A stretch of 64,000 bases of DNA. Source: Nocardioides panacis. GTDB lineage: Bacteria; Actinomycetota; Actinomycetes; Propionibacteriales; Nocardioidaceae. The position numbers and the translations under genes were made by a program. Below the pieces are notes generated by a model that was not told the DNA's origin, did not search any database, and worked only from the letters and a program-made list of their open reading frames with translations. The stretch spans positions 3,782,001-3,846,000 of the forward strand of contig NZ_CP077062.1 in assembly GCF_019039255.1 (NCBI RefSeq), read 5' to 3'. Every line of letters starts with the position of its first letter. The first letter of the stretch is position 1. Below, piece by piece: positions 38,973 through 62,671 of the stretch.

Positions 38973-39332
38973 CTAGCGGACGGTCGGTCCCACCGGAGCA
39001 GGCCCGGGTCGTGCGCCACCGGGGGCGGGCTCCTTGAGCTCCACGAACAGCACCTCGGTGTCGGTGCTGCCGATGTTCTCCCCGGCGTGCTCCTGGGCCG
39101 GCAGCCAGCCGACCAGCCCGGAGGGCATCGCCACGTCCCGCGTCGTGCCACCCGCCACCAGCCGCCGCTCGAACGCGGACAGCGTGACCATCACGCTGTC
39201 CGGGTGGGCGTGCGGGGTGGTCCGGTGGCCCGGGGCGTCGTGGTAGCGCAGCACCCGGACCCGCTCGTTCTCGAAGACGACGGTGTAGGCGTCCGCGTCG
39301 GTCCGGGCCGGGTCCAGGGTCATGCCGCTCAT
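38973..39332 (-). CDS. Small cupin-domain protein
   Basis: This single cupin barrel has about 119 residues from ATG 39332; ATG 39323 and GTG 39359 are also possible and none has a strong ribosome-binding site. RVLRYHDAPGHRTTPHAHPD contains the conserved His residues of cupin motif 1; SVMVTLSAFERRL follows. The C-terminus is a Pro/Gly-rich tail. Small cupins of this type bind a metal or a small ligand, but no reaction can be assigned. The gene ends nine bases upstream of the Rv3662c-like gene start, so the two are likely co-transcribed leftward. Confidence 0.72.
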   Translation of the reverse strand: MSGMTLDPARTDADAYTVVFENERVRVLRYHDAPGHRTTPHAHPDSVMVTLSAFERRLVAGGTTRDVAMPSGLVGWLPAQEHAGENIGSTDTEVLFVELKEPAPGGARPGPAPVGPTVR

Positions 39333-53734: not shown

Positions 53735-54480
53735 GCACGCCCCTCGGTCTTGACGAGCTTGGCCGCCAGCACCGGGTCGGTGGGCCCCTCGCCGTACGCC
53801 GGGCACCAGCGCGCCACCGGGCAGGCCCCGCACGCGGGGTTCCGGGCGTGGCAGACCCGTCGGCCGTGCCAGATCAGGTGGTGGGACAGCATCGTCCAGT
53901 CCTTCTTGGGAAACAGCGCGCCCACCTCGTGCTCGACCTTGACCGGGTCGGTCTCGGCGGTGAGGCCGAACCGGCGCGCGAGCCGGCCGAAGTGCGTGTC
54001 GACGGTGATGCCCGGGATGCCGAAGGCGTTGCCGAGCACCACGTTGGCGGTCTTGCGGCCCACGCCGGGCAGCTCGACGAGGTCCTTCAGGCGGGGCGGC
54101 ACCTCCCCGCCGTGCCGTTCGACGAGCGCCGCGGACAGCTTGAGCAGCGACTCGGTCTTGGCCCGGAAGAACCCGGTCGGCTGGATCAGCGCCTCGAGCT
54201 TGTCCCGCTCGGCGCCGGCCATCGCGGCCGCGTCCGGGTAGGCCGCGAACAGCGCCGGGCGGACCGCGTTCACCCGGCGGTCGGTGGTCTGGGCCGACAG
54301 CACGGTGACCACGAGGAGCTCGAAGGGGTTGTCGAAGTCGAGCTCGCAGCGGGCGTCCGGGTAGGTCTCCCCGAGCACCCGGTCGATCTTGCGGGCACGG
54401 CGGACGAGCGAGGTGTCGGGCACGTCCGCCAGCCTATCCGGGGCCCCACCGGGGTGTTCTTGGCGCTCGCGAGGGGTCAT
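53731..54480 (-). CDS. nth: Endonuclease III
   Basis: This base-excision-repair glycosylase/AP lyase has about 249 residues from ATG 54480. The helix-hairpin-helix motif is [12 protein letters not shown] with the catalytic Lys, and the catalytic Asp is in TVDTHFGRL. The [4Fe-4S] cluster is [17 protein letters not shown], with spacing C-X6-C-X2-C-X5-C as required. The N-terminal 18 residues are poorly conserved, so a downstream GTG at 54426 is possible. It is divergent from crp. Confidence 0.95.
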
Positions 54481-54510
54481 ACGACAGACTGTGACCTGAA
54501 GCACCGACGG

Positions 54511-54532
54511 CGGGCCCCGACCGTGGGGCCCG
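54511..54532 (+). other. Hairpin in the 5' leader of crp
   Basis: CGGGCCCC (54511-54518) and GGGGCCCG (54525-54532) form a perfect eight-base stem with a six-base loop. It ends three bases before the GAGGAG ribosome-binding site of crp. It may control translation or stability of the crp message, or be a leftover terminator. TGTGACCTGAAGCACC just upstream (54490-54505) is a partial match to a Crp box and could be an autoregulatory site. Confidence 0.45.
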
Positions 54533-54548
54533 ATGAGGAGGACATCTC

Positions 54549-55226
54549 GTGGACAACGACGTACTTCGCCAGTCTCCGCTGTTCAGCGCGCTGGACGACG
54601 AGGCGGCGACCGCACTGCGCGCCTCGATGTCCGAGACGCGGCTGCGCCGAGGCGAGGTGCTGTTCCACGAGGGCGACGAGGGCGACAAGCTCTACGTCGT
54701 CACCGAGGGCAAGGTGAAGCTCGGCCGGACCTCCGCGGACGGCCGCGAGAACCTGCTCGCGATCCAGGGCCCCGGCCAGATGTTCGGCGAGCTGTCGCTG
54801 TTCGACCCGGGCCCCCGCTCGGCCACCGTGACCGCCGTCACCGACAGCGTGTTCTCCTCGCTGTCCCACGAGGACCTGCTGCGCTGGCTCGACGGCCGTC
54901 CCGCCGTCGCCCGCGGCCTGCTCGCCCAGCTGGCGGGCCGGCTGCGCCGGGCCAACGACGTGGTCGCCGACCTGGTGTTCTCCGACGTCCCCGGCCGGGT
55001 CGCCAAGGCGCTGCTCGACCTCGCGGACCGGTTCGGCCGGACCGCCGACGACGGCGTGCACGTGCACCACGACCTCACCCAGGAGGAGCTCGCCCAGCTG
55101 GTCGGCGCGTCCCGCGAGACGGTCAACAAGGCGCTCGCCGACTTCGTGAACCGCGGCTGGCTGCGCCTCGAGCCGCGCTCCGTGGTGATCACCGACATCG
55201 AGCGGCTCTCCCGCCGCGCCCGCTGA
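54549..55226 (+). CDS. crp: Crp/Fnr-family cAMP-responsive regulator (Crp/GlxR orthologue)
   Basis: This 225-residue global regulator has the cyclic-nucleotide-binding domain at the N-terminus ([19 protein letters not shown], with Glu, Arg, Ser and Thr that contact cAMP) and the winged helix at the C-terminus ([20 protein letters not shown]). GTG 54549 follows GAGGAGG. It matches Rv3676 and SCO3571 in position between nth and the metallo-hydrolase. In related bacteria it controls carbon metabolism and respiration. Its stop codon is the first three bases of a 57-bp palindromic element. Confidence 0.95.
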
Positions 55227-55280
55227 CCCGTCACCCGCGCAGGGGTTTCCCCGGCGTGTCGTCGCAGGACTGACGGGTCA
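55224..55280 (+). repeat. 57-bp interspersed palindromic element, copy 1
   Basis: Terminal inverted repeats TGACCCGTCA (55224-55233) and TGACGGGTCA (55271-55280) enclose a 37-base core with CGGCGTGTCGTCGCA. The element exactly spans the gap between the convergent crp and metallo-hydrolase genes: its first TGA is the crp stop and its last three bases are the stop of the opposite gene. Two further copies of the same length are at 60119 and 61174. It can fold as a terminator. Confidence 0.9.
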
Positions 55281-56078
55281 GCCGCGCAGGTACTCGATCT
55301 GCGCGCGCACGCTGAGCTCCGCCGCGCCCCAGAGCACCGGGTCCACGTCGGCGTAGACGGTCTCCACCACCTGCCGGGCCATGTCCTCGGCCGGGTCGGT
55401 GCCGGCCGCGCGGAGCCCGGCCAGCGCCTCGCGGACCTGGTCGAGCCGCTGCCGGCGGTGCGCGAGGTAGTGGTCCAGGACGCCGAGCGCGTCCTCGATC
55501 ACCGGCCCGTGGCCCGGCCACACCGCGGTCACGTCCTGGGCCTCGGCCAGCGCGTGCAGCCGGTGCAGCGAGTCCAGGTAGGCCCCGAGCTGCCCGTCGG
55601 GGTGCGCCACGACCGTCGTACCCCTGCCGAGCACGGTGTCGCCGGTCAGCACCGCGCGCTCGGCCGGCAGCACGAACGACAGCGAGTCCGAGGTGTGCCC
55701 CGGGGTGCCGACCACGTGCACCTCGAGCCCGTCCACGGCGACGACGTCCCCGTCCCCGAGCCCCTCGTCGCCGAGCCGCTGCCCCGGGTCGAGCGCGCGT
55801 ACGCCGCAGCCGACCCGCTCCGCGAAGCTGCGTGCCGCCTCGGAGTGGTCGAGGTGCCCGTGGGTCAGGAGTACGGCGGCCACGTCACCGGCGTGCTCCG
55901 CGACGGCGTCGAGGTGCGCGAGGATCTCCGGGCCCGGGTCGACCACCACCGACCGCGCCGCGCCGGGCTCGCGCAGCACCCAGGTGTTGGTGCCGTCGAG
56001 CGTCATCATGTTCGGGTTCGGCGCCAGGACGCACCGCGCGCGCTCGCCGAACGTCCCGCCGGCCCAGGGCTCGGTCAT
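55278..56078 (-). CDS. Metallo-beta-lactamase-fold hydrolase (Rv3677c-like)
   Basis: This 266-residue protein has the metal-binding motif LTHGHLDHSEAA and later ligands GTPGHTSDS, LTGDTVLGRG and VWPGHGPV. The C-terminal helical part with the winged extension resembles LACTB2-like endoribonucleases. ATG 56078 overlaps the upstream NUDIX stop by four bases. Its stop codon lies in the 57-bp repeat. Orthologues follow crp in other actinobacteria. The substrate, RNA or a small ester, is not known. Confidence 0.88.
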   Translation of the reverse strand: MTEPWAGGTFGERARCVLAPNPNMMTLDGTNTWVLREPGAARSVVVDPGPEILAHLDAVAEHAGDVAAVLLTHGHLDHSEAARSFAERVGCGVRALDPGQRLGDEGLGDGDVVAVDGLEVHVVGTPGHTSDSLSFVLPAERAVLTGDTVLGRGTTVVAHPDGQLGAYLDSLHRLHALAEAQDVTAVWPGHGPVIEDALGVLDHYLAHRRQRLDQVREALAGLRAAGTDPAEDMARQVVETVYADVDPVLWGAAELSVRAQIEYLRG

Positions 56079-56956
56079 CCGCGCATCCGCGCCGCCACGT
56101 CCTCGCCGAGCCGGACCAGCCGGTCGGGGATCGTGAGGTAGGCGCCGTCGTCGCCGATCACGGCCTGGGGCTCGACCGCGACCAGGTCGCGGCCCGCGGC
56201 GGCGTCGAGCACCTCGGCGGTGCTGAGGTGGTCGAACATCTCCAGGCAGGTGCAGTAGGTCGGCGGCAGCATCAGCATCTCGTGGGCGTCCACCGCCCGG
56301 ATCGCCTCGCGCAGCGGCAGCCAGACCACGTGGTCGGACTCGGTGGACACGTCGCGGGTGGCCTGGCCGGCCGGCAGCTGGGCGACGAAGAACCGGGCGT
56401 TGAACCGGCGCGGCTCGAACACCGGCGTCACCCAGGAGCCCCACAGCCGCAGCAGGTCCGTGCGCAGCTTGAGGCCGCGCCGGTCCAGGAACGAGGTGAA
56501 GGAGATCTCCCGGCCCTCCAGCGCCCGGCGATCCTCCTCCCAGTCCTCGCCGGTGGTGTCCTCGACCACGGAGTCGGTGGTCGGCCCGGCCAGCAGCACG
56601 CCGGACTCCTCGAAGGTCTCCCGCACCGCGGCGCAGACCAGCGCCCGGGCGAACGCCTCGTCGGTGCCGAGCAGCGCCGCCCACTCCGCCGGGGTCGGCC
56701 CGACCCAGCCGATGTCGGCGTCGAAGTCGCGCTTGTCGACCCCGCCCCCGGGGAACACGCACATGCCCGCGGCGAACGCCATGTCGACGTGCCGGCGCAG
56801 CAGGTACACCTCCAGCCCGCCCGGCTGCCCGTCGCCGTCGCGCAGCAGCACGACCGTCGAGGCGTGCCGGGCGTCGACCGGCTCACGGGTGCCGTCGGTG
56901 AAGGCGCGGGCGTGCGCGGCCAGGTCGTCGGGCAGTCGGCGGGTGGGGTCGGTCAC
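56075..56956 (-). CDS. NUDIX hydrolase with an insertion in the NUDIX box (NUDT19-like)
   Basis: This 293-residue protein has a NUDIX box split by about 30 residues: CVFPGGGVDKRDF comes first and ALVCAAVRETFEESGVLL follows after the insertion. Both halves are intact. This split form is typical of the NUDT19 group, whose mammalian member hydrolyses CoA derivatives. It is co-translated with the metallo-hydrolase downstream and lies eight bases after the RidA gene. The substrate is not certain. Confidence 0.85.
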   Translation of the reverse strand: MTDPTRRLPDDLAAHARAFTDGTREPVDARHASTVVLLRDGDGQPGGLEVYLLRRHVDMAFAAGMCVFPGGGVDKRDFDADIGWVGPTPAEWAALLGTDEAFARALVCAAVRETFEESGVLLAGPTTDSVVEDTTGEDWEEDRRALEGREISFTSFLDRRGLKLRTDLLRLWGSWVTPVFEPRRFNARFFVAQLPAGQATRDVSTESDHVVWLPLREAIRAVDAHEMLMLPPTYCTCLEMFDHLSTAEVLDAAAGRDLVAVEPQAVIGDDGAYLTIPDRLVRLGEDVAARMRG

Positions 56957-56963
56957 GGTGCCC

Positions 56964-57422
56964 TCAGATCTCGACGACGAGCTCGACCTCGACGGGCGCG
57001 TCGAGCGGGAGCACCGGGACCCCGACCGCGCTGCGGGCGTGCTGCCCGATCTCGCCGAACACCTCGCCGAACAGCTCCGAGGCGCCGTTGGCGACGCCCG
57101 GCTGGCCGGTGAAGTCCGGGGTGGAGGCCACGAACGCGACGACCTTGACGATCCGCTTGATGTTCGACAGCTCGCCGATCTCCGCGCGCACCGCCGCCAG
57201 CGCGTTCAGCGCGCACTGCCGGGCGCACTCGACGGCCTCCTCCGCGGTGACCTCGCCGCCGACCTTGCCGGTGGTGATCAGCTGGCCCTCGCGCATCGGC
57301 AGCTGGCCGGAGGTGAACACGTGGTTGCCGCTGCGCACCGCCGGCACGTAGGACGCGACCGGCTTGGCGACCTCGGGGACGCTCAGCCCCATCGCCTCGA
57401 GGCGCTGCTCGGGCGTGGTCAC
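56964..57422 (-). CDS. RidA/YjgF-family protein
   Basis: This 152-residue protein resembles enamine/imine deaminases: SGNHVFTSGQLPMREGQLIT at the front, ECARQCALNALAAVRAEIG in the helix and the C-terminal GVPVLPLDAPVEVELVVE. The Arg that binds the carboxylate in true RidA is not obvious in this longer, Rv3678c-like branch, so the reaction may differ. GTG 57422 overlaps the upstream DUF4177 stop (GTGA). Confidence 0.86.
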   Translation of the reverse strand: MTTPEQRLEAMGLSVPEVAKPVASYVPAVRSGNHVFTSGQLPMREGQLITTGKVGGEVTAEEAVECARQCALNALAAVRAEIGELSNIKRIVKVVAFVASTPDFTGQPGVANGASELFGEVFGEIGQHARSAVGVPVLPLDAPVEVELVVEI

Positions 57423-57575
57423 TGGACCGGCCGCTTGAAGTAAGCCACCAGGTTCTCCGGGTTCATCCCCGGCACGACCTGGACGAGCTCCCAGCCGTCC
57501 TGGCCGAAGTTGTCGAGGATCTGCTTGGTGGCGTGCACCAGCAACGGCGCCGTGAAGTATTCCCATTTCGTCATG
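57419..57575 (-). pseudogene. DUF4177 small protein, frame broken near codon 12
   Basis: Starting at ATG 57575 the sequence reads MTKWEYFTAPLL, the typical beginning of this family. The following VHATKQILDNFGQDGWELVQ and VVPGMNPENLVAYFKRPVQ are in another frame. Removing one A from CACCAAGCAAC (plus strand, about 57540) joins them to a normal 51-residue protein. A GTG at 57538 could start the second part alone (39 residues). Orthologues precede RidA in mycobacteria. I treat it as one gene with a probable sequencing or real one-base insertion. Function unknown. Confidence 0.72.
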
Positions 57576-57610
57576 CCGGGACTCTACTGCCGACGGTTTA
57601 CGGTGGCGCC

Positions 57611-58361
57611 GTGCAACCCGACGACGTGATGACCCGGGCCGCGGAGCCCCCGGACGCGGTGCTCCGCTACGCGCCGCACGAGGCCGGCCTGGTCGACGTA
57701 CACCTGCCGGCGGAGCTGTCCGCACCACGACCGCTGGTGGTCTACGTGCACGGCGGCTTCTGGCGCGAGGCCTACGACCGCGTGCATGCCCGTCCGCTCG
57801 CGAACGCGCTGGCCCGTGCGGGGTTCGTGGTGGCGTCGGTGGAGTACCGCCGCGGTCCGGGGGGCCTGGCCGGACACCTCCGCCGACCTGGACCGTGCGC
57901 TGTCCGCGCTGCCCGGGCTGCTCGACGGAGCCGCCGTCCGCACCACGACGACCACGCTGGTCGGGCACTCCGCGGGCGGGCACCTCGCGCTCTGGCTGGC
58001 CAACCAGCCGCACCCGGTCCAGCGGGTCGTCGCGCTCGCGCCGGTCGGCGACCTGCGGGCCGCCGCCGCGTGGGGCATGGGCTCCGGCGCGGCCGTCGAC
58101 TTCCTCGGCGGCACCCCCGAGCAGGTCCCCGGGACGTACGACGCCGCGGACCCGGCCACCCGGATGCGCACCCGCCCCGCGGCCGACGTCGTGGTGGTGC
58201 ACGGCGACCGGGACCAGGCCGTCCCGGTGGAGAGCAGCCGCGGCCTGGCCCGGCGGTTCGACTGGCTGGACTACCGCGAGCTGCCCGGGGTGGACCACTT
58301 CGCGGTGATCGACCCGCTCGCCCCGGCCTGGACGGACGTGCTCGCCGCGATCCGCGGGTGA
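57611..58361 (+). pseudogene. Alpha/beta hydrolase, kynurenine-formamidase-like, split by a frameshift
   Basis: The N-terminal part has the HGGFW oxyanion motif (VVYVHGGFWREAYDRVHARP). The C-terminal part has the nucleophile in LVGHSAGGHLALWLA, Asp in VHGDRDQAVP and His in PGVDHFAVID. The break is at six G (57859-57864); five G restore RRGPGAWPDTSADLDRAL. The full protein would be about 249 residues. HGGFW/HGGYW enzymes include arylformamidases of tryptophan breakdown. It lies 13 bases before a styrene/indole-type monooxygenase, so the two may act on the same aromatic compound. GTG 57611 is the likely start, with TACGGT six bases before it (possibly leaderless). Confidence 0.8.
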
Positions 58362-58374
58362 GACGCTGGGACCC

Positions 58375-60106
58375 ATGAGCTCCCCTCGTCGCATCGCCGT
58401 GGTGGGCGCCGGCCCCGCGGGCACGGCGCTGGCGCTCGGCCTGGTCCGGCACGGCTACGACGTGACGCTGGTGTCGGACCGGACGGCCGAGGAGATCCGG
58501 GACGGCTCGGTGATGTCGAGCCAGATCACCTTCGAGTCGGCCCTGGAGAGCGAGAGCGCCCTGGGCATCGCCCGGCTGCTGCCGTCCTCACCGCCGATCG
58601 AGCAGATGACCTACGAGACGACCCGGCTGGACGGCTCCACCGCGGCGTTCGCGACCCGGCTCAGCACCCCGGCCCGCTCGCTGGACCAGCGCGTGCGGGT
58701 GCCGCTGCTGATGGAGGAGATCGAGCGCCGCGGCGGCAAGGTCGTGGTCCGCTCGGCGACCGTGCAGGACCTCGAGGACCTGGCCCGCGACCACGACCTG
58801 GTCGTCGTCTCGACCGGCCGGGGCGGGCTGGCCTCGCTGTTCGAGCGGGACGCCGACCGGTCGCCGTACGACGCACCGCAGCGGGTCGCGGCGCTCACCT
58901 ACCTGCACGGCATGGCACCCGCCCCCGAGGGCCCGGGCCTGCGCTACCGCTCGGTCGAGGGCGTCGGGGAGTGCTTCACCTGCCCGGCGCTGACCGTCGA
59001 CGGGCCCTGCGACATCGTCGTCGTCGAGGGCGTCCCCGGCGGGCCGCTCGACTGCTGGGACGACGTGACCTCCCCCCGCCGAGCACCTAGCTGTGCTGCG
59101 CTCCGCGCTGGCCGAGCACTTCCCGTCCGAGGCGGCCCGGCTCGCCGGCGCGACCCTGGTCGACGACCGCTCGGTGCTGCGCGGCCGGATCACCCCCGTC
59201 GTACGGCGTCCGGTCGGCGCGCTGCCCAGCGGCGCCCCGGTGCTCGGGATGGCCGACGTCGTGGTGCTCAACGACCCGCTCACCAGCCAGGGGTCGAACA
59301 ACGCGCTCAAGTCGGCGTCGTTCTACCTCGAGGCGATCGCCGCCCACGAGGGCCCGTTCGACGCCGGCTGGATGCAGCGAACCTTCGACAACTTCTGGCG
59401 CGGCTGGGCGCAGTGGGCCACCGAGTGGACGAACTCCTGGCTGCGCCCGGCGACCCCGCACCAGCGCAGCGTCGTCGACGCCGCGGCCCGGCACCCGGCG
59501 ATCGCCGCCCAGATCGCCGCCGGCTTCGACGACGCCCGGCTGTTCACCCCCTGGTGGTTCGACCCCGAGGCCGCCGCCTCGTTCGTCGCCGCCGCGGTCC
59601 GGGCCGAGGGCGCCCGGTTCGACGTCCGGGACCTGCGCCGGGCGCTGGGCCAGTACGCCACCGGCGTCACGGTGGTCACCACCACCGACCCGGCCGGCGA
59701 ACGGTTCGGGATGACCGCGAACTCGTTCACCTCGGTGTCGCTCGACCCGCCGCTGGTGCTCTGGGCGGCCGGCCGGGACTCCCCGTCGCTGCCGGCCTTC
59801 GAGGCCTCCGAGCGGTTCGCGGTCAACGTGCTGGCCTCCGACCAGCACCACCTGTCGCGGCAGTTCGCCACCTCCGGCAGCGACAAGTTCGACGGTGTCC
59901 GGCTGCTGGCCGGCGACCCGCCGCTGCTGGAGGGCACGGTCGCCCGGTTCGTGTGCCGGCGGCTCCCCGGGGACCGCGGCCGCATCGAGGCCGGCGACCA
60001 CGTGCTGTTCCTGGGCGAGATCGAGTCCTACGACGCCGACGGCGGCGAGCCCTTGGTGTTCCACTCCGGCTTCTTCCGGCTGGCCACCAAGCACCCCGAC
60101 CTCTGA
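58375..60106 (+). pseudogene. Fused styrene/indole monooxygenase-flavin reductase (StyA2B-like), split by a frameshift
   Basis: Residues 1 to about 400 are a FAD-dependent oxygenase of the StyA group: AVVGAGPAGTALALGL at the start, SSQITFESAL, then NDPLTSQGSNNALKSASFYL. The last roughly 160 residues are a flavin reductase of the StyB/HpaC type (RRALGQYATGVTVVTTTDP, MTANSFTSVSLDPPLVLW). This order and fusion match the one-component StyA2B enzyme of Rhodococcus opacus. The frame breaks at six C (59072-59077); five C restore VTSPAEHLAVLRSALAEHFP and a protein of about 576 residues. It would epoxidise styrene or hydroxylate indole-like substrates using NADH. No separate StyA1 gene is next to it. 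Confidence 0.85.
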
Positions 60107-60118
60107 CCCCCCTCCCGC

Positions 60119-60175
60119 CGACCCGTCACCCGTGCAGCAGTTCTCCCGGCGTGTCGGGGCAGAGCTGACGGGTCG
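60119..60175 (+). repeat. 57-bp interspersed palindromic element, copy 2
   Basis: It has the same length and layout as copy 1: CGACCCGTCA (60119-60128) and TGACGGGTCG (60166-60175) as terminal arms, and the conserved core CGGCGTGTCG. It lies 12 bases after the monooxygenase stop and before the AbiEi-like gene. The outermost base of each arm differs from copies 1 and 3 in a compensating way (C with G in place of T with A), so pairing is kept. Confidence 0.9.
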
Positions 60176-60234
60176 GCGCCGCGACCTCTGTGGACGACCG
60201 CCGCGGCCGGCGCGGGCGGACCGATCCTGCTGGG

Positions 60235-61176
60235 ATGTACGACGACCTCTCCCCGCTGCACGCGCACCCGTCGCTGCCCACCGACCGGCCGTTCACCCAC
60301 CGGCAGGCCGTGGACCTGGGCATCAGCCGCGAGGTGCTCCGCCGGATGGTCCGGGTCGGCCTGCTCCGGCGCGTGCTGCGCGGCGTGTACGTCGACGCGG
60401 CGGCCGACGACGGGCTGCTGATGCGCACCCGGGCCGTGTCTCTGGTGGTGCCCGCCACCGCGATCGTCACCGACCGGACCGCCGCCTGGCTGCACGGCGT
60501 CGACGCGCTCCGGCCCGGTGACCACCTCGTGCCGCCGCCCGTCGAGGTCTTCCAGCCGCCCGGCCGCACCCGGGTGCGCACCGCCGCGACGTCCGGGGGC
60601 GAGCGGACCCTGCTGCCCCACGACGTCGAGGTCGTGCACGGCGTGCGGGTCACCACCCCGCTCCGGACCGCCCTCGACCTCGGCCGGCTGACCCGGCGCG
60701 ACCACGCCTTCGCCGCGCTCGACGCCCTGCTCCGGCTGGGCCGCTTCGGGCACGACGAGCTGCTGCGCGACGTGGAGCGCTTCCGGGGTCAGCGGGGCGT
60801 CGTACAGCTGCGGGAGCTGGCGCCGCTCGCCGACGCCCGCGCGGAGTCCCCCGGCGAGTCGGTGCTCCGGCTGCGCTGGCTCGACACCTCGCTGCCCCGG
60901 CCCGAGCTGCAGGTCGAGGTGCGCGAGCACGGCCTGCTGCGGGCCCGGCTCGACCTGGCCGTCCCCGCGCTCCGCCTCGCCGTGGAGTACGACGGCCGCG
61001 ACTGGCACACGTCCCCGGCCCAGCGGGCGCACGACCGGCAGCGCCGCGACTGGCTGGGCGCACACGGCTGGACCGTCGTGGTGCTCGGCCGTCGCGAGGT
61101 GTTCGACCAGCCGCACCTCGCGGCCGTCCGGATCCGGGAGGCGCTGGTGCCGCTGCTGCGCCGGCGGGCCGGCTGA
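60235..61176 (+). CDS. AbiEi-type winged-helix plus DUF559 endonuclease-like protein
   Basis: This 313-residue protein is common in Nocardioides-like genomes. The N-terminal part (FTHRQAVDLGISREVLRRMV, RRVLRGVYVDA) is the AbiEi-type winged helix. The C-terminal part (ALRLAVEYDGRDWHTSPAQR, QRRDWLGAHGWTVVVLG) is a DUF559/very-short-patch-repair-like nuclease fold with Glu, Asp and His positions. No AbiEii nucleotidyltransferase toxin lies nearby, so it is not a complete type IV toxin-antitoxin pair. ATG 60235 has no strong ribosome-binding site; the frame is open to 60190. The stop TGA is part of repeat copy 3. Confidence 0.8.
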   Translation: MYDDLSPLHAHPSLPTDRPFTHRQAVDLGISREVLRRMVRVGLLRRVLRGVYVDAAADDGLLMRTRAVSLVVPATAIVTDRTAAWLHGVDALRPGDHLVPPPVEVFQPPGRTRVRTAATSGGERTLLPHDVEVVHGVRVTTPLRTALDLGRLTRRDHAFAALDALLRLGRFGHDELLRDVERFRGQRGVVQLRELAPLADARAESPGESVLRLRWLDTSLPRPELQVEVREHGLLRARLDLAVPALRLAVEYDGRDWHTSPAQRAHDRQRRDWLGAHGWTVVVLGRREVFDQPHLAAVRIREALVPLLRRRAG

Positions 61177-61230
61177 CCCGTCACCTGTGCGACGACACGC
61201 CGCGGGAAGGGCTGCGGGAGTGACGGGTCA
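61174..61230 (-). repeat. 57-bp interspersed palindromic element, copy 3 (inverted)
   Basis: Arms TGACCCGTCA (61174-61183) and TGACGGGTCA (61221-61230) have a core that matches copy 1 when reverse-complemented (GGCGTGTCGTCGCA). It fills the whole gap between the AbiEi-like gene and the convergent CoA-transferase gene and supplies the TGA stop to each, as copy 1 does at 55.2 kb. Confidence 0.9.
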
Positions 61231-61878
61231 GCGGAGCGGGGGCTCGGTCTTCTCGCGGACCTCGTCCTCGGTGACGCCGGGGGCCAGCTCGACGAGCCGC
61301 AGGCCGCCGCCCTCGCCGGTGACCGGGTCCCGGGGGTCGATGTCGATGACCGCGAGGTCGGTGATGATCCGCTGCACGACGCCCTTGCCCGTGTAGGGCA
61401 GCGAGCACTCGTCGACGATCTTGTACGACCCGTCCTTGGCGACGTGCTCCATCAGCACGATCACCCGCTTCGCGCCGTGCACGAGGTCCATCGCGCCGCC
61501 CATGCCCTTGACCATCTTGCCGGGGATCATCCAGTTCGCGATGTCGCCGGCGGCCGAGACCTGCATGGCGCCCAGGATCGCGGCGTCGATCTTGCCGCCG
61601 CGGATCATCCCGAACGACGTCGCGGAGTCGAAGAACGAGGCGCCCTTGCGCAGCGTCACGGTCTCCTTGCCGGCGTTGATCAGGTCCGGGTCCTCGTCGC
61701 CTTCGAACGGGTAGGCGCCGACACCGAGGATGCCGTTCTCCGACTGCAGGACCAGCTCCACGTCCTCGTCGACGTAGTTCGGCACCATCGTCGGCAGCCC
61801 GATCCCGAGGTTGACGTACGACCCGTCCTTCAGCTCCGAGGCGGCCCGGGCGGCCATCTCCTCACGCGTCCACGGCAT
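61228..61878 (-). CDS. scoB: 3-oxoacid CoA-transferase subunit B
   Basis: This 216-residue subunit of a class I CoA-transferase moves CoA from succinyl-CoA to a 3-oxo acid. The catalytic Glu is in [11 protein letters not shown]. The family motifs [14 protein letters not shown] and [19 protein letters not shown] are intact. I chose ATG 61878 because AGGAAGG lies eight bases upstream; GTG 61887 would overlap that site. ATG 61878 lies one base after the stop of subunit A (61880-61882 on the minus strand), so the pair is coupled. Confidence 0.93.
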
Positions 61879-61879
61879 G

Positions 61880-62671
61880 TCAGGCACCTTCCTGCGACGA
61901 CGGGCGGGGCCGGGTGGTCCGCTTCTCGATCTGCTTGGCGTCGACCTGCTCCGGGGTGAGCGCGACGACCCGCTGCACGTAGACGCCCGGGGTGTGCACG
62001 TCGTCCGCCTCGATCTCGCCGGGCTCGACGAGGTGCTCGACCTCGGCGATGGTCACCCGGCCGCACATCGCGGCGAGCGGGTTGAAGTTGCGGGCGGACT
62101 GGCGGAACACCAGGTTCCCGTGCCGGTCGCCCTTCCAGGCGCGCACCAGGCCGAAGTCCGCGACGATCGCCTCCTCGAGGACGAACTGCTTCTCGCCGTC
62201 GTGGGTGCCGAACGTGCGCACCTCCTTCGCGGGCGAGGACACGGTCACGTTGCCCTCGTCGTCGTACCTCCAGGGCAGCCCGCCCTCGGCGACCTGGGTG
62301 CCCACGCCGGTGGCGGTGAAGAACGCCGGGATGCCCGAGCCGCCGGCCCGCATCCGCTCGGCGAGGGTGCCCTGCGGGGTCAGCTCGACCTCGAGCTCGC
62401 CGTGCAGGTACTGCCGGGCGAACTCCTTGTTCTCCCCGACGTAGGAGGAGATCATCCGCCGGATCCGGTGGTTGAACAGCAGCCGTCCGAGGCCCCACTC
62501 GTCCACGCCGCAGTTGTTCGACACCGCCTCCAGCTCGTCGGCACCCTGCTCCAGCAGCGCGTCGATCAGCACCGTAGGAATGCCGCACAGCCCGAAGCCG
62601 CCCACCGCGATCGTCGAACCGCTGGCGATGTCGGCGACGGCCTCGGCGGCGCTCGCGACCACCTTGTCCAC
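61880..62671 (-). CDS. scoA: 3-oxoacid CoA-transferase subunit A
   Basis: This 263-residue partner of subunit B has the CoA-transferase motif [20 protein letters not shown] near the N-terminus, [16 protein letters not shown] and [23 protein letters not shown] 62671 follows GGGAGG with five bases of spacing; the frame is open to 62689. Together the subunits activate acetoacetate, 3-oxoadipate or another 3-oxo acid. The neighbours do not decide which; acs and the ArsA pair are core genes. Confidence 0.92.

Follow-up and report, generated by a model that had tools for sequence, protein, structure and literature searches.

The question raised by a 64,000-nucleotide stretch of the Nocardioides panacis chromosome (contig NZ_CP077062.1, positions 3,782,001 to 3,846,000; below, the window, whose coordinates are used throughout) is to what system a 57-bp palindromic element belongs that occurs in it three times. 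A preliminary description of this DNA took the element for a mobile repeat of the repetitive extragenic palindromic (REP) or miniature inverted-repeat transposable element (MITE) type, or for a dispersed terminator. Beyond that description, the second and third copies are the ends of one unit enclosing a gene for an AbiEi-like protein with a nuclease-like domain, and the same arrangement recurs elsewhere with different repeats. The 57-bp element is probably, with a chance of about two in three, the miniature repeat of a gene-repeat system owned by the AbiEi-Vsr/EDxHD gene between these two copies. This combination of gene and repeats seems to be a type of mobile DNA that has gone unnoticed.

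All three copies were found where the preliminary description had placed them. Copy 1 (55224..55280, plus strand) is solitary, copy 2 (60119..60175, plus strand) forms the left end of the unit, and copy 3 (61174..61230, minus strand), inverted relative to copy 2, forms its right end; these assignments are based on the sequence and on genome-wide searches. The arms are TGACCCGTCA/TGACGGGTCA in copies 1 and 3, and CGACCCGTCA/TGACGGGTCG in copy 2. The 10-bp arms described initially have 9 bp common to all copies, whereas the tenth base differs in copy 2. This base changes on both sides, and the arms in the window keep pairing as claimed; across the genome, however, covariation is weak. The shared core CGGCGTGTCG is present in all three copies (in copy 3 on the minus strand). 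Three exact arm pairs at this spacing are seen in 64 kb versus 8e-6 expected under a second-order Markov model, and thus chance is excluded.

In the complete N. panacis genome (G000) both 9-bp arms occur exactly at 17 places, and the reversed-pattern control gives none. A covariance model built from 16 copies yields 31 distinct places (E <= 0.05; 60 rows on both strands merged). The fixed length holds in 28 of these 31 copies, but one is 1 bp longer and two are 1 bp shorter. The consensus, CCGCYGACCCGTCAC-YCGTGCAG-n-CCGGCGTGTCG-n-TGCAC-n-GTGACGGGTCRGCGG, consists of two inverted copies of a motif of approximately 20 nt (CCGCYGACCCGTCAC...). The hairpin is near-perfect in some copies, whereas the core is asymmetric in others. 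The exact arms are confined to N. panacis (one of 58 genomes). The covariance model, which tolerates different arms, reaches E 0.01 in 18 of the 58 genomes including N. panacis, and the matches outside N. panacis are mostly in G030 (40 rows) and G006 (9 rows). The palindromic form, searched as an exact 19-mer, has one match each in a contig of a planctomycete metagenome-assembled genome and in Pseudomonas viridiflava, both taken as chance. A search of positions 54000-62500 against Rfam gave no match.

The complete unit (60115..61234, no strand) has the structure repeat - gene - inverted repeat and includes the outer CCGC/GCGG-like bases of the repeats. The candidate cognate gene (60235..61176, plus strand) encodes 313 amino acids, and its stop is the first TGA of copy 3. 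The product is an AbiEi-antitoxin-like DNA-binding module, made of a winged helix-turn-helix and a second AbiEi domain, fused to a nuclease-like domain of the Vsr / I-Bth0305I type, the latter being an EDxHD homing endonuclease. Approximately 200 N-terminal residues have the AbiEi fold. The sequence profile matches 3hrl at E 0.0017 and 3r3p at E 0.029, in agreement with the I-Bth0305I/Vsr catalytic fold, and the acidic residues of this domain are invariant and belong to the best-conserved positions of the whole sequence. The PADLOC label is AbiEi, with a weak PDC-S37 match besides, and NCBIfam gives weak matches below the cut-off only (DUF559, ProA).

Homologs of this gene (E <= 1e-20) are present in 42 of the 58 genomes, and most are flanked by repeats of their own. 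When 400 bp on each side of the matched stretch were compared and a score of 40 or more was accepted, a matching inverted repeat was found at 53 of 72 usable loci, and a repeat in either orientation at 56; two of the initial 74 loci (L114 and L141) were left out because a contig end cuts the flank. Among control genes, 6 of 225 pass. Four of these are flanked by two copies of the present element, one is itself a homolog, and one (L062:7178-9208, score 41) is unexplained. This control belongs to an earlier run of 73 loci that included L114 (53 of 73 passing), and its loci include regions picked for carrying the element, which biases it against the gene-repeat association. By eye, the flanking repeats are single palindromes or arrays of two to seven units, inward-pointing and often beginning at the stop codons of the neighbours. 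The framework CCGCYGA-NNN-GNC recurs among them, with NNN varying.

Sampling across the phylum gave a homolog in 37 of 119 genomes. Loci were taken from 29 of the 36 other genomes, and four (L234, L238, L243, L245) were dropped, as a contig end cuts the flank. The remaining 25 have inverted repeats in 8 cases and repeats in either orientation in 13, and none of 500 mispaired controls passes. Thus the link between gene and repeat fades with distance yet persists. A plasmid search gave distant matches, none of them close, in 18 records. Several homologs (L157, L161, L154, L237, L239, L249) have direct flanking repeats, or direct and inverted ones together, and might be a sub-type. Three genomes of one genus (G095, G131, G153) have 13, 14 and 10 homologs at E 1e-20, above most in the phylum sample.

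The repeats of individual genes are also scattered through the genomes of these genes. A joint search of nine repeat families against ten genomes gave 84, 34, 120, 75, 40, 42 and 3 matches, respectively, in the genomes from which the families come (G000, G001, G003, G005, G025, G030 and G034), and no match in any of the three genomes that lack a homolog at 1e-20. Among the matches listed (about 150), the families match their own genome, apart from two matches from a G003 family and five from a G000 family in G005; by eye, the G005 homologs themselves carry that G000-family motif type. The G001 palindrome occurs at 11 places in G001, the unit ends included, and at none in G002, G004 and G006. 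Across 51 loci, the more similar the proteins are, the more similar are their motifs (rho 0.21; none of 500 permutations as high). Genome kinship confounds this value, yet paralogs of the same genome differ in motif.

Several scattered families form tandem arrays with periods of 32 bp (G000, G003) or 17 bp (G025). At array ends facing the 3' end of a gene, the outer unit is in the sense of that gene in 26 of 31 cases (7/9, 13/13 and 6/9); the 27 dispersed sites of this analysis were picked from the best-matching rows and are not a random sample. In G003, 8 of 10 sites have the structure array(+) - spacer - array(-), that is, the anatomy of the unit without the gene. A recurring sequence with GCAACGAG...GTTGCTG-like stretches lies between the inverted arrays of four G003 loci (L193, L196, L198, L199) and is perhaps a nested second repeat family. 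A distant paralog in N. panacis, at 4620477 in L091 (G000:C1:4618977-4622549), is bounded by a different 70-bp palindrome pair (approximately 1298-1368 and 2405-2473). Among the matches listed this family has no other genomic place, and thus scatter is not required of every family.

Empty orthologous sites, which would support mobility according to the preliminary description, are seen in congeners at both places considered. The copy 1 position is empty in G003 and G004, where the anchors are 25 and 21 bp apart, and G001, G002, G005 and G006 contain other palindromes, by eye; the G005 palindrome is of the same family as the ends of the G005 unit. At the site of the unit, the interval between the flavin-reductase and CoA-transferase genes, G004 is empty, with 34 bp between anchors. 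G001 has the same unit with different arms on both sides (GAGAGGCCA), i.e. both ends differ jointly between G000 and G001, as predicted by co-evolution with the protein. In G005 the interval contains a distant paralog (27% identity, hhalign probability 99.4, E 5e-21; in Pfam a sub-threshold AbiEi_4 only) with another palindrome pair, and G003 is similar by eye, having a distant paralog with other palindromes. Thus, at a single site, complete units together with their matching ends are acquired, lost or exchanged for others. We infer mobility from this presence and absence.

The copies in N. panacis are concentrated just behind genes. Within 25 bp of a stop codon lie 27 of the 31, versus 95 of 597 random intergenic points in the window. 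Ten are situated between convergent genes, three within a called gene and none between divergent genes. The genes were called by a home-made caller trained on the window and the N. panacis loci, and reused for G003, G025 and the control-gene loci of other genomes. Two of the three in-gene copies (G000:C1:57119, 2237614, 4307617) seem to encode the C-terminus of a protein, with readings such as ...VTGRR. At L060, L061, L062 and L063 of N. panacis, pairs of copies 0.7-1.7 kb apart enclose genes, none of which is a homolog of the unit gene in the search of this genome.

One mechanism that would account for these patterns is as follows. The AbiEi part would bind the cognate motif or the inverted doublet, the nuclease would nick or cut DNA at the 3' end of a gene or at the repeat, and repair or recombination would copy in the whole unit or the short inverted-repeat part alone. 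The outcome in N. panacis would be one unit and approximately 30 miniature copies, retained for the most part immediately downstream of stop codons. Inverted repeats of 23 bp are bound by AbiEi proteins (excerpt of PMC7319586), and I-Bth0305I reportedly dimerises on a target of nearly 60 bp (excerpt of PMC3943268); the 57-bp inverted doublet would suit such a dimer. On balance the system seems, with somewhat less assurance than the assignment of the element to its gene, to be a new class of selfish DNA convergent with RAYT/REPIN, in which an EDxHD/Vsr-AbiEi nuclease propagates the gene that encodes it and, independently, places miniature inverted-repeat versions of its motif into the 3' ends of genes, with gene and motif co-diversifying and units displacing each other at favoured sites. 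If so, a second, unrelated enzyme class would join those thought to sustain the stocks of very small dispersed repeats on bacterial chromosomes, and genes now labelled just DUF559 or AbiEi would gain a role. With one motif per gene, the family would also be a natural data set of protein-DNA specificity pairs.

Several observations weigh against the assignment of the element to a mobile system owned by this gene. No flanking repeat is found by the flank test at 16 of the 72 homolog loci and at 12 of the 25 in the phylum-wide sample; two of the former, read by eye, have diverged arrays on both sides (L123) or an array on one side only (L099). Mispaired flanks pass in 26 of 1440 inverted comparisons and in none of 1440 direct ones, which is put down to motifs common to related loci. 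The hairpin covariation is weak: of 21 pairs tested over the 31 copies, 6 are invariant and 7 are changed on both sides, and shuffles match the observed covariation in 12 to 66 of 500 cases, depending on the measure. The homologs in N. panacis that have flanking repeats each carry different ones; thus only the short repeats are multicopy, not the units, and the gene may reside stably in place instead of jumping. The compared genomes are of different species, with flank DNA identity of 75-92%, so that exact junctions and target-site duplications are not readable, and G002 and G006 are uninformative at the unit site, where their two flanks are on separate contig stretches. Binding, cutting, the copying step and the protein as driver are all deduced. 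Finally, a nuclease cutting its own motif would cut the genome at approximately 30 places; nicking restricted to hairpin or single-stranded forms would explain why this does not happen.

Another possibility is a regulatory role for the AbiEi-like protein. It would bind the flanking motifs as operators of its own gene, and the scattered copies, dispersed by ordinary recombination and not by the protein, would be additional binding sites that make up a regulon or help to organise the chromosome. Indeed, AbiEi antitoxins autoregulate via 23-bp inverted repeats, according to the same excerpt of PMC7319586, and the AbiEi fold takes up the N-terminal part of the protein. However, the sites lie behind stops and not in promoters, the motifs stand on both sides of the gene, the best-conserved positions of the protein include acidic residues of the nuclease domain, and whole units come and go at one site together with their own motif. 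We consider this explanation unlikely. The gene could also be a hot-spot passenger next to an ordinary MITE or REP moved by a conventional transposase, either RAYT/Y1 or the enzyme of a DDE insertion sequence that shares these ends and lies elsewhere. The element has the REP-like doublet anatomy, is multicopy, and is mostly extragenic, 28 of the 31 copies being not wholly within a called gene, as fits extragenic inverted doublets of the REP/REPIN type. The initial reading as a REP/MITE-type mobile repeat stands as far as dispersal, copy number and empty congener sites are concerned, but not in its RAYT (REP-associated tyrosine transposase) or TnpA partner: PF01797 gives no match in the N. panacis genome, and no Y1 transposase was found there, whereas 5 of 14 control genomes match. 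The flanked gene was itself rejected as a RAYT, its product matching other families than PF01797. No conventional transposase was recognised by eye among the open reading frames around the 31 copies, for which neither a family scan nor a DDE search was made. One would not expect a passenger to be bordered by another matching pair of repeats in each genome, or its motif to track its protein sequence, and this explanation is quite improbable.

Slightly less probable again is that the elements are dispersed bidirectional transcription terminators, retained by host selection at convergent gene ends. The element does form a hairpin, a third or so of the copies (10/31) separate convergent genes, and some supply the stops of both neighbours. 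However, the T-tract that accompanies the hairpin of intrinsic terminators is lacking: TTTT occurs within 15 nt on either side in none of the 31 copies, and the mean T content of the flanks is 1.48 and 1.16 per 12 nt versus a background of 1.65. The terminator family suggested initially is also at odds with the empty congener sites of only 21-34 bp, with the restriction of the element sequence to its own genome, and with the sister families that are 32-bp or 17-bp tandem arrays and not one hairpin, and it leaves the link to one gene family unexplained.

No description of this gene-repeat system was found in the open-licence PMC literature, and it may have been published elsewhere; the titles and abstract openings of papers on DUF559 and AbiEi_4 mention neither flanking repeats nor mobility. 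The closest known system is REPIN/RAYT, which shares the extragenic inverted doublets of a short motif and a nearby gene resembling a mobiliser (excerpt of PMC3116915). It differs in having an HUH (Y1) transposase instead of an AbiEi and Vsr/EDxHD-type protein, and here the repeats form cassettes around the gene and several families are 17- or 32-bp tandem arrays. REP palindromes have a GTAG or CGTC tag at one end (excerpt of PMC3733652); CGTC occurs in the G000 arm but not in other families, e.g. GAGTCGGCGC and GAGAGGCCA. We conclude that the system resembles RAYT/REPIN in the way it works, with an unrelated nuclease of the homing type in place of the defining RAYT enzyme. EDxHD homing endonucleases such as I-Bth0305I are described, in the excerpts cited, mainly as phage-encoded enzymes, whereas here the domain belongs to a free-standing chromosomal gene that also encodes an AbiEi module and is accompanied by terminal repeats of its own and by miniature derivatives. 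A homing endonuclease cuts alleles devoid of its gene, which is then copied in; for the present unit, the corresponding observation is its presence or absence at the orthologous site. AbiE type IV toxin-antitoxin systems share the AbiEi fold, but here it is fused to a nuclease domain, and neither immediate neighbour of the unit gene is a DUF1814 nucleotidyltransferase toxin gene (in Pfam, these neighbours have flavin-reductase and CoA-transferase domains). With MITEs the element shares its short, non-autonomous-looking inverted-repeat form in many copies, most of the G003 sites (8/10) lacking the gene. However, the candidate parent is a nuclease unit, and a parent DDE insertion sequence was neither seen nor searched for.

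The genes around the copies in the window illustrate the placement behind stops. Copy 1 lies between a CRP/FNR-type regulator gene (54549..55226, plus strand), whose stop TGA is formed by bases 1-3 of the copy, and a convergent gene for a metallo-beta-lactamase-fold protein (55278..56078, minus strand), whose stop is formed by its final 3 bases. The flavin-reductase-domain gene (59093..60106, plus strand) ends 12 bp upstream of copy 2, and the stop of the convergent CoA-transferase gene (61228..61878, minus strand) is formed by the final 3 bases of copy 3. The arms of copies 1 and 3 thus provide the stop codons of two convergent genes each. Another palindrome, with exact 12-bp arms CGGACAGCGTGACCATCACGCTGTCCG and unrelated to the 57-bp element, is located at 39176-39202 of the window.

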